Assembly (NCBI GenBank): GCA_016932095.1
Contig: JAFGDN010000072.1
Coordinates: forward strand, 1-64,000
Reading direction: 5' to 3'
Source of the DNA: Sedimentisphaerales bacterium
GTDB lineage: Bacteria; Planctomycetota; Phycisphaerae; Sedimentisphaerales; Anaerobacaceae
DNA: 64,000 bases
This document shows positions 44,066-54,026 of this stretch, in pieces (the stretch's first letter is position 1; each line of letters opens with the position of its first letter). The notes beneath the pieces are model-generated. The model was not told where the DNA came from. It searched no databases and saw only the letters and a program-made list of their open reading frames with translations. Position numbers and translations under genes: made by a program.

Positions 44066-44509
44066 CTATAAAATCTGAACCGTTCCGCCGCAGCCGGTGA
44101 TTTTCTGTTCGGCTGATTTGCTGAACCTGTGCGCTGCCACCTGAAGCCGTTTGGTCAGAGCACCTGCCCCGAGAATTTTCACCATGCTGGAGGCGCTGTC
44201 AATCAAACCGACCTCACAAAGCGTCTCCAAACCGATAACACTGCCTTCGTCGAATCTTTCAAGCTGCGAAACGTTGACAATCTCGTAACACCGGGCAAAC
44301 CGGACGTTGCTGAAGCCCCTTTTGGGCATCCGGCGAAAAACCGGAATCTGCCCGCCCTCGTGAAGCGATTCCCGCATTGCGCCGGACCTGCTTCGGCTGC
44401 CTTTATTACCCCTGCCGCAGGTTTTCCCGTGTCCGCTGCCGGTGCCCCTGCCGATGCGCTTGCGCGATTTATATTTTCCTGCCTGAGATGTTATCTGCCA
44501 TTCATACAT
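44066..44509 (-). CDS. rplO: 50S ribosomal protein L15
   Basis: 147 residues. The Gly-rich basic N-terminus (KRIGRGTGSGHGKTCGRGNKG) and GGQIPVFRRMPKRGF are diagnostic; the tail (HRFSKSAEQKITGCGGTVQIL) is normal. It follows rpsE by nine bases: the rpmD gene (L30) that often lies between them is missing. Confidence 0.97.
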   Translation of the reverse strand: MYEWQITSQAGKYKSRKRIGRGTGSGHGKTCGRGNKGSRSRSGAMRESLHEGGQIPVFRRMPKRGFSNVRFARCYEIVNVSQLERFDEGSVIGLETLCEVGLIDSASSMVKILGAGALTKRLQVAAHRFSKSAEQKITGCGGTVQIL

Positions 44510-44518
44510 CTTTGGTCA

Positions 44519-45037
44519 TCACCACCTTTTTACCGGCTGCACCTCTACGCCTCGAAGCGCTTCAATGTCTTCTTTGCTGCGCAGCTGCATTAACCCGTCC
44601 ATAGCGGCCTTTACGACGTTCTTGGCCGATGTGCTGCCGAACACTTTTGTAAGCACGTCCTGCACGCCCGCAAATTCGAGAACTGCACGCGCGCATGAAC
44701 CGGCGATTACGCCCGTTCCGGGGCTTGCCGGCACCATTGCTATTCGCGTCGAGCCGAACTTTCCGGTTACCTGGTGCGGAAGCGTCCGGCCGACAAGATG
44801 AACTCTTCTGAGCTCCTTTTTGGCCTCTTTTATTCCTTTTTCGACCGCCGCGGGCACCTCGTTGGCCCTGCCGTAGCCGATGCCTACCGTTCCAGCGCGG
44901 TCGCCAACCACAACCAACGCGCCAAAGCCGAACCTGCGCCCGCCTTTGACCACCTTGGCCGTCCGATATACTTTCACCACTGTATCTTCCAGCGGCGATT
45001 CCTCCTGTTCCATCGTTTTAACAAAATCTTGTGCCAA
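44519..45037 (-). CDS. rpsE: 30S ribosomal protein S5
   Basis: 172 residues. The double-stranded RNA-binding part has YRTAKVVKGGRRFGFGALVVVGD and GRANEVPAAVEKGIKEAKK; the C-terminal half has PASPGTGVIAGSCARAVLEFAGV. It helps decoding accuracy and mRNA unwinding at the entry channel. Normal length. Confidence 0.97.
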   Translation of the reverse strand: MAQDFVKTMEQEESPLEDTVVKVYRTAKVVKGGRRFGFGALVVVGDRAGTVGIGYGRANEVPAAVEKGIKEAKKELRRVHLVGRTLPHQVTGKFGSTRIAMVPASPGTGVIAGSCARAVLEFAGVQDVLTKVFGSTSAKNVVKAAMDGLMQLRSKEDIEALRGVEVQPVKRW

Positions 45038-49050: not shown

Positions 49051-49878
49051 TCAACTACCCTGCGGATTACCTATTTCAGGCCCCTGTGCCGTCTGCCCAG
49101 TGGCTCCGACAGGCGGTGCACCGGCTGAAGCGTCCGGCTTTTGTCGAACCCGCTTTGTTTCCTGCGTTACCTCGCCGCCCGCAACGTCTGCCCGTCTAAA
49201 GGGCCTGCGCCTTCGCGGCTGTTGCCTCGCTTCTATCTGCTCACCGAAATGACCCTTGTATATCCATACCTTTATGCCAATCGTCCCGTACGTCGTCTCC
49301 GCGCGGGCCGTGTCGTAATCGACGTCGGCGTCGAGAGTATGCAGCGGGATACTTCCCATTTTCTGCATTTCACGCCTCGCTATCTCAGCGCCGGCCAATC
49401 GGCCGGAACACATAATCTTCACGCCTTTGGCGCCGGCGTTCATCGCCTGCTCACAGAACTGCTTCATTGTTCGCCTGAATGACGCCCGTTTGACAAGCTG
49501 TTCGGCTATCGATTCGGCCACTAAAAAGGCGTTCAAATCCGGCTCTTTTATCTCGACGACGTTTACGGTCACTTTTCGACCGGTGAACGCCTCAAGCTCT
49601 TCGCGAAGCTTTTCGACCTCGCCGCCCCTCGGGCCAATCACAATGCCCGGTCTTGCGCAATGCAGCGTTACGGTAACGTCGTTTCTCGTCCGGACCACTT
49701 CTGTCCTCGCAACTCCGCCCTTGGGCATCTGCCGGTTGTATTTCTTGTCGATGAAGTCCCGGATTTTCTGGTCCTCGATGAGGAACGTCCCGTAGTCCTG
49801 CTTCGACGCAAACCACGTGCTTTGCCAGCCCCGCGTTATACCCGTCCTGAAACCTATTGGCGATACCTTCTGACCCAT
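49051..49878 (-). CDS. rpsC: 30S ribosomal protein S3
   Basis: 275 residues; E. coli has 233. MGQKVSPIGFRTGITRGWQS, the KH domain (RPGIVIGPRGGEVEKLREEL) and the C-terminal GVKIMCSGRLAGAEIARRE are diagnostic. It forms the mRNA entry channel with S4 and S5. The extra ~45 residues are a disordered tail rich in R, Q, P and G. Confidence 0.97.
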   Translation of the reverse strand: MGQKVSPIGFRTGITRGWQSTWFASKQDYGTFLIEDQKIRDFIDKKYNRQMPKGGVARTEVVRTRNDVTVTLHCARPGIVIGPRGGEVEKLREELEAFTGRKVTVNVVEIKEPDLNAFLVAESIAEQLVKRASFRRTMKQFCEQAMNAGAKGVKIMCSGRLAGAEIARREMQKMGSIPLHTLDADVDYDTARAETTYGTIGIKVWIYKGHFGEQIEARQQPRRRRPFRRADVAGGEVTQETKRVRQKPDASAGAPPVGATGQTAQGPEIGNPQGS

Positions 49879-49911: not shown

Positions 49912-50460
49912 TTACGGCTGCGTTACCGTTATATGAATATGACAGCCCTTTTTGTGTATAGGGTGGGCCCTGCCCCTGTCCTTGGCTATAAATTGTTTCG
50001 TGCCGATTCTTGTGCCCGCGTCATCCACTCGCGCCTCGCTGACATAAAGCGCTTCCACGTCGGCTTCCTGCTCGTCGGCGTCGGCAATCGCCGCCCGCAG
50101 GGTCTTGGAAACCATTTCCGCCGCTCGCTTATGTGTGAATTTCAATACATCCAGCGCATCCTGCACCGGCCTGCCTGCTATCAACTGCGTTACGAGCCGG
50201 GCCTTGCGGGGCGACATAGCCGCATATCGATACGATGATTGCCAGTCCATCATCTCGGCAACTTCGACTCCAAACGCCGTCGCCAGTCGCTGAATGTCTT
50301 CCTTGCGGGGTATCGGCCTCATTAACCCTTTTTGCCAGTTCCTGACCGCGGAAACCGCGGCGGGCTTGTCCAGCCCCGTCCTTGCGAGCTGCTCGGCCAG
50401 CTGCTCAACGCTGACCTTGCGTTCTTTACTAAGCTGTTTTAGCTTGCTGCTGCTTAACAT
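49912..50460 (-). CDS. rplV: 50S ribosomal protein L22 with N-terminal XRE-like helix-turn-helix
   Basis: 182 residues; usual L22 is about 110. Residues ~73-182 are complete L22 (YAAMSPRKARLVTQLIAG, LKFTHKRAAEMVSKTLRAAI, and the tunnel-hairpin and C-terminal part KDRGRAHPIHKKGCHIHI). Residues ~4-70 read like a Cro/C1 repressor-type domain: KLKQLSKERKVSVEQLAEQL, then VSAVRNWQKGLMRPIPRKED, then IQRLATAFGVEVAEMM. The frame is continuous with no stop, and the only clear start is the ATG at 50460, 17 bases after rpsS. The extra domain could bind rRNA, mRNA or DNA; self-regulation of the operon is an inference. Confidence 0.93.
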   Translation of the reverse strand: MLSSSKLKQLSKERKVSVEQLAEQLARTGLDKPAAVSAVRNWQKGLMRPIPRKEDIQRLATAFGVEVAEMMDWQSSYRYAAMSPRKARLVTQLIAGRPVQDALDVLKFTHKRAAEMVSKTLRAAIADADEQEADVEALYVSEARVDDAGTRIGTKQFIAKDRGRAHPIHKKGCHIHITVTQP

Positions 50461-50477: not shown

Positions 50478-50771
50478 TTACGCCGGCGGCGCTGTCGTCG
50501 CCTCTTCGACCTTCCTCGTCGAATGTCCTCTGAATATTCTTGTCAGGGAAAACTCGCCCAGTTTATGCCCTACCATATCCTCGGTAACGTAAACCTTGTT
50601 AAAATTCTTTCCGTTATGCACCATAAACGTATGTCCGACAAACTCCGGTATAACCGTGCATCTTCTCGCCCAGGTCTTTATTGGGTCCCGTATTCCCATT
50701 TGTATCTGCTTATTGACCTTCGCGAACAGCTTTTCGTCAACGAACGGCCCTTTTTTCAGCGATCTTCCCAT
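50478..50771 (-). CDS. rpsS: 30S ribosomal protein S19
   Basis: 97 residues. [39 protein letters not shown] and [16 protein letters not shown] are universal. It lies in the 30S head near the A site. It follows rplB by 16 bases. Confidence 0.98.
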
Positions 50772-53603: not shown

Positions 53604-54020
53604 ACTCTCACACCCAACTTCTTTATTTTGCCTGTTTTACCAAACCAAGAGCCGCAATCTGTAAATAACAAACAATCCCTGTCTCCTGCCCGGCGACAAA
53701 AACTCCCTTCTCGTCGTCGCACACAACCTTATCTTTTTTGGCAGGACAGGTATTGACCGGTTCCCGAATGTTATGCGCTAAGAACACCCGTTGACCAGTC
53801 GCCTTCCTTCAAGAATCGGGTCTTCAGTCGTGCAGTCAACGCCGTATAAACCTGCGCTGATTTTACGACCTTGCAGGGCTTATTGGCAGCACCTGCTTAC
53901 AACCCCATTATCACAACAAACCATCAATCAAACCGTCCCTGATGACCACGATTCAGACGTGCTACAGCCCAACTCGTCTATCGCAAAGCCAACCCTGGCG
54001 ATGCTCGCTACGGCTGAAAA
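53604..54020 (-). ncRNA. Long leader of the S10 operon with two closable stems
   Basis: From the likely start near 54020 to the rpsJ ATG, 417 bases carry no gene. Two hairpins can be drawn on the minus-strand RNA. Near the 5' end, CAGCC (54016-54012) pairs with GGCTG (53969-53965), with inner ATCGC/GCGAT. In the middle, CGTTGAC (53841-53835) pairs with GTCAACG (53795-53789). This fits a regulatory leader, but no known motif class was recognised and pairing was judged by eye. Confidence 0.45.
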
Positions 54021-54026
54021 ACCAGT

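Follow-up and report, generated by a model that had tools for sequence, protein, structure and literature searches.

Ribosomal protein L22 carries a repressor-like helix-turn-helix (HTH) domain at its N-terminus in one order of planctomycetes and in two further families of the same class. The window, i.e., the whole stretch of 64,000 nucleotides that was analyzed, contains this fusion as the rplV gene of a Sedimentisphaerales bacterium (Table 1). The reading frame of 182 codons starts with ATG, is uninterrupted as originally predicted and lies between rpsS (50478-50771) and rpsC (49051-49878), in the usual S10-operon order rpsS-rplV-rpsC and with a gap of 17 nt between rpsS and the rplV start codon. 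The predicted completeness of the L22 core is confirmed by Pfam Ribosomal_L22 (PF00237), which matches residues 77-179 (E 4e-28, 98.1 bits vs. a cut-off of 28), and by TIGR01044, which scores above its cut-off (86.9 vs. 73.65). The HTH domain is joined to the first strand of L22 without a linker. Compared with uL22 (RplV), the core at residues 73-182 and the gene context are alike, while the 72-residue HTH in front and, within the order, about three extra hairpin residues are not. The gene is the single L22 match in the whole genome (2.95 Mb, 96% complete), in which no second, normal L22 gene was found, and as the sole L22 the fusion protein is presumably incorporated in the 50S subunit. We propose that its HTH may well be a permanent module of the ribosome surface for nucleic-acid binding or docking, and not a sequence-specific DNA repressor.

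Table 1. Coordinates of the features of the HTH-L22 locus and of the S10 leader in the window.
Feature	Position	Strand	Basis and remarks
rplV, HTH-L22 fusion ORF, 182 aa, sole L22 of the genome	49912..50460	-	
N-terminal Cro/C1-type HTH domain, residues 1-72	50245..50460	-	Pfam on 74 relatives, AF2, Foldseek, purifying selection
Helix 3 (recognition-helix equivalent), residues 32-43	50332..50367	-	AF2, alignment A1, column counts
L22 core, residues 73-182, and stop codon	49912..50244	-	Ribosomal_L22, TIGR01044
Insertion of about 3 residues in the L22 hairpin (AGxRxGTK)	about 50002..50010	-	Alignments; exact position alignment-dependent
Structured leader RNA between fusA and rpsJ, candidate target	53730..54023	-	Also L190-L209, L150-L159

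Whole genomes were sampled within the Planctomycetota, and most of them are metagenome-assembled. An rplV match was obtained in 91 of 99 genomes, comprising the window genome and its relatives from seven families (f1-f7), and 90 of these 91 align from residue 1 or 2, the sole exception being G054, which aligns from residue 68. The seven families form an order that we take to be the Sedimentisphaerales, an order of the Phycisphaerae in the NCBI taxonomy. In the class sample of 198 genomes the extension was also aligned in 10 of 10 genomes of family f10 and 2 of 2 of family f25 (12/12 for both). For the remaining families, the matches listed align from about residue 34-73, mostly from 60-73, and those with the shorter starts often cross stop codons. 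The domain profile was scored in all 392 genomes from across the phylum, and among the matches listed full-length ones occur only in f1-f7, f10 and f25. The original prediction of an L22 fused to an XRE-type HTH, which was made from one genome, is borne out by this recurrence in relatives, by the single-copy ORF and by the selection on the domain described below. In the literature, as far as papers under an open licence are concerned, no report of an HTH-L22 fusion was found.

It was considered that the extension may be an artefact of annotation or assembly, being either untranslated or preceding a true L22 start at M70 or M71. This is suggested by the marginal HTH score of the single sequence and by the window genome itself, where, contrary to the prediction that no alternative start fits, in-frame ATGs are present at M47, M70 and M71 and thus provide a start adjoining the core; these are not conserved. 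The ATG 72 codons ahead of the core, however, is kept across the order, with a distance of 70 codons in two genomes and of 78-86 in three f5 members that have small insertions. An ATG at 72 codons is also found in f25, and most f10 genomes start with GTG at about 75. Frame, length and start are shared by dozens of independent genomes, some of them complete single-contig chromosomes, and several relatives (e.g., L002, L003, L019) do not have a start codon near the core, so that L22 could not be produced there without the domain. In fused loci 217-320 nt separate the rpsS stop codon from the L22 core, whereas in non-fused loci the distance is at most 166 nt and mostly 22-60 (with two miscalled negative values), showing that the non-fused lineages truly have no room for the domain. 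The domain is under frame-specific purifying selection: for residues 2-72 pN/pS is 0.38 in pairs with pS <0.6 and 0.43 in all pairs, which is about twice the values of the L22 core (0.17 and 0.25), and in the other two frames of the region it amounts to 1.06 and 1.41. By conserved start, selection and gene spacing, an artefact or a wrong start is effectively refuted and its probability negligible.

Residues 1-72 are assigned to the Cro/C1 (XRE) fold by the agreement of sequence profiles with AlphaFold2 and Foldseek, in line with what had been predicted for the first ~70 residues. The full window protein gave only a marginal HTH match against Pfam (HTH_26, E 0.009, below the Pfam cut-off); as such a score of a single sequence is no proof, the claim was tested on the family. 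With 74 N-terminal domains and E<=1, 48 matched HTH_31 (best E 2.7e-7), 46 HTH_26 (6.2e-6), 33 HTH_3 (3.8e-8) and 29 HTH_19 (1.1e-8), and at least one member, L063, passed a curated cut-off (HTH_3, 25.5 vs. 23 bits), below which the window sequence stays. The AlphaFold2 model of the full-length protein (12 sequences in the alignment, mean pLDDT 84, built without rRNA) shows four domain helices at residues 4-14, 18-25, 32-43 and 53-63 with a pLDDT of about 82-90, the inter-domain confidence being modest (pTM 0.61). With Foldseek against viral models, mainly annotated HTH cro/C1 phage proteins were retrieved with a probability of 0.99-1.00; the compact matches superimpose with an rmsd of 1.6-3 Å over about 67 residues, with a best E of 0.005 and none <0.001. 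A model of the isolated domain is of low confidence and its PDB fold search was not significant, Cro/C1 proteins (TP901-1 CI, DdrO, CylR2, SinR) being frequent among these non-significant matches.

Apart from the Pfam and Foldseek matches, the domain has in common with Cro/C1 domains, such as those of phage repressors, the order of the helices and the motifs W-x-x-G-x-x-x-P and LA-x-x-L-x-V. It differs from them in its fusion to a ribosomal protein, in base-contact positions that are not conserved and in a stretch from helix 2 to helix 3 that is longer by about seven residues. The distance from LA to W is about 22 residues vs. 15 in the 434 repressor (alignment A1), and the turn ahead of helix 3 is longer than in the classical helix-turn-helix, whose spacing the domain does not have. 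A long turn ahead of helix 3 is likewise found in TniQ of CRISPR-associated transposons, the proteins of solved structure that best match the N-domain profile A1 in sequence (E 0.002 for residues 22-72); the similarity is weak, and TniQ is a transposon target-selection protein without an L22 core. Other L22 proteins with additional parts are different: the match to NF008917 (PRK12279), a fusion of L22 with an unknown domain, is below the cut-off and its domain is unrelated and no HTH, and chloroplast uL22c, which also has extra terminal sequence, contains no HTH but extensions that are mostly extended in conformation.

In alignment A1, M1, A38, N41, W42, P49, D55 and A60 are invariant or nearly invariant, and helix 3 ends in a K/R-N-W stretch in which N41 and W42 are invariant. 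A basic residue (K or R) occupies position 6 in 70 of 74 domains and position 40 in 68 of 74, and the mean net charge of the domain is +3.5 (range -3 to +9). The phage-repressor fold, together with the conserved K/R40 and N41, would be compatible with a classical autoregulator, i.e., free HTH-L22 that represses transcription by binding to an operator, either at the S10 promoter or at another site. However, positions 36-37, equivalent to the base-contacting Gln28/Gln29 of the 434 repressor, are variable and among the least conserved columns, the turn is non-canonical, and the dimerisation of a repressor is not explained by a linker-free monomeric fusion. In the rpsJ promoters of 21 genomes of the same family no operator-like site was found, only -35/-10 elements and A/T tracts, and the top palindrome, AAAAA-N7-TTTTT, reflects base composition. 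The original prediction suggested that free L22 might regulate the S10 operon; at the DNA level, such regulation received no support from promoters, base-contact columns or spacing, and we consider it very unlikely.

The conservation was also considered under the assumption that a co-opted fold has lost nucleic-acid binding and merely stabilizes the L22 surface or its assembly. The strongest conservation indeed falls largely on presumably buried positions (A35, A38, W42, L59, A60, L63) plus P49, and the elevated pN/pS of the domain relative to the core is in agreement with such a passive extension. The conservation of K6, K/R40 and N41 has no obvious packing reason, though, and a contact is suggested by the fact that the order and both other families have retained the full HTH, so that a purely structural role appears rather unlikely.

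L22 lines the exit tunnel and is part of the ring on which chaperones, SRP and modifying enzymes dock. L22 being a core protein encoded in one copy, the domain should be present on every 50S subunit, where it would be placed on the solvent side beside the exit tunnel. There it may grip nearby rRNA and/or dock a ribosome-associated factor, using its basic helix 1 and the K/R-N-W stretch that closes helix 3 for these contacts. Counting against this proposal, basic residues occur in DNA-binding HTHs too, and the position equivalent to N41, Gln33, contacts DNA in the 434 repressor. It was shown that uL22 is among the proteins that surround the tunnel exit (PMC5071890), and that on the ribosome the Cro/C1-type HTH of Mbf1 binds helix h33 of the rRNA, loss-of-function changes being located in helix alpha3 of this HTH (PMC8040806). 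Mbf1/EDF1 is an analogy only: its Cro/C1-type HTH functions on the ribosome, where it makes contact with rRNA (PMC8040806), but it is a separate archaeal/eukaryotic protein on the small subunit. The reading as a ribosome-surface module follows from the position of L22 at the exit, the Mbf1 precedent, the conserved basic positions and the missing signs of operator reading; it is from this reading that we infer what the domain contacts and whether translation, targeting or ribosome assembly would be affected. Binding to rRNA, which had been predicted as one option, or to a factor on the ribosome appears to fit the data best.

Each of the seven families f1-f7 has a structured leader between a promoter-like site and rpsJ. 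The promoter-like TTGACA/TATAAT is followed by a stem P1 (AGCC/GGCU), an invariant AGCGAG strand, a hairpin P2, GCG and AGU. Among 29 sequences of f1-f7, P2 is maintained by varied combinations of base pairs, and in L153 and L154 both sides of P1 are changed, the covariation being counted on an anchored layout that ignores phylogeny. The fold of one member alone was not better than that of shuffles (z -0.83). A leader model built from f1 detected the leader in 23 of 198 genomes, each with a single copy and each a member of the order, and the divergent copies of f4 and f5 were recognized by pattern only. GGA-containing hairpin loops recur in the leader. In Rfam, 10 leader loci gave no match at the gathering threshold and the window none of note, and in the open-licence literature the sole find was an rpsJ motif from Peptostreptococcaceae (PMC11109978). 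Simple mimicry of a 23S motif by the leader core was rejected, as a pattern search in four 23S loci gave no match. The order-wide S10 leader appears to be a candidate for a new, undescribed class of structured RNA.

This leader opens the possibility of autoregulation at the RNA level, in which an excess of L22 over rRNA would cause the HTH, with or without the core, to bind the S10 leader and to repress the S10 operon. Its compensatory changes upstream of rpsJ in seven families and its occurrence once per genome where detected speak for such a function, which we nevertheless consider unlikely. In f10 and f25, which have the fusion as well, no leader was found, and it is therefore neither a general nor an obligate partner of the fusion; moreover, both traits are order-wide, which leaves their co-occurrence with little weight, and the ligand could be another protein of the operon, L4 first. 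In E. coli, the counterpart role in S10 control is exerted by L4. For uL4 autogenous S10 control via a long structured 5'UTR was described (PMC10931766). Quite doubtful, too, is a dual L22 that serves both the ribosome and gene expression, where HTH-L22 off the ribosome would bind the S10 leader or another nucleic acid and set ribosomal protein synthesis. If true, this would be, to our knowledge, the first ribosomal protein that regulates through a fused repressor-type domain.

Further observations concern the ribosomal components of these genomes. The hairpin insertion (L22 residues about 149-154) was seen in every f1-f7 member that was examined but is absent from the other families, and it adjoins the stretch that is deleted in erythromycin-resistant L22 of E. 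coli. Two 23S rRNA gene copies of G062 (L211, L214) span about 3.17 kb vs. 2.8-2.9 kb elsewhere, possibly due to an insertion. In the window, no rpmD (L30) ORF is present between rpsE and rplO (44509-44519), where the gap is only about 10 nt, and S3 (49051-49878, minus strand) is extended at its C-terminus by about 65 residues, the first of which form an Arg-rich stretch (RQQPRRRRPFRR).

With regard to origin, a profile built from f1-f7 without f10/f25 (A4) finds the L22 heads of f10/f25 at E 1e-12 to 1e-18, whereas no other protein in the 198 class genomes scored better than 0.014. Together with an hhalign comparison of the domains of the order with those of f10/f25 (E 4e-26), this specificity rules out that unrelated XRE domains were fused to L22 twice independently. 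By these sequence comparisons, both groups share one L22-specific domain family of one origin, although the lineages are not sisters. In the tree of concatenated S10-operon proteins, f10/f25 group with f24, f22 and f20, apart from the order, and the tree of the L22 core agrees in placing f10/f25 (loci L086-L095) with f24/f22/f20 (trees by FastTree, with modest support at some deep nodes). As the f10/f25 core follows the operon tree, a transfer of the whole rplV between the lineages is not supported. One domain family in non-sister lineages whose cores follow the operon tree suggests either repeated losses of an old fusion or a transfer of the rplV 5' part from one lineage to another. Nowhere else in the window genome was a related domain found that could have been the source of the HTH.

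Since families without the domain live well, its function is dispensable outside the fused lineages. The fusion is a marker for several lineages within a phylum about which little is known, and a DNA-binding-type fold that is fixed at the tunnel exit and common to a bacterial order constitutes a natural experiment in ribosome evolution. It could reveal a new docking site, a second Cro/C1 domain that, like that of Mbf1, was redirected to rRNA, or an autoregulator of a new kind.
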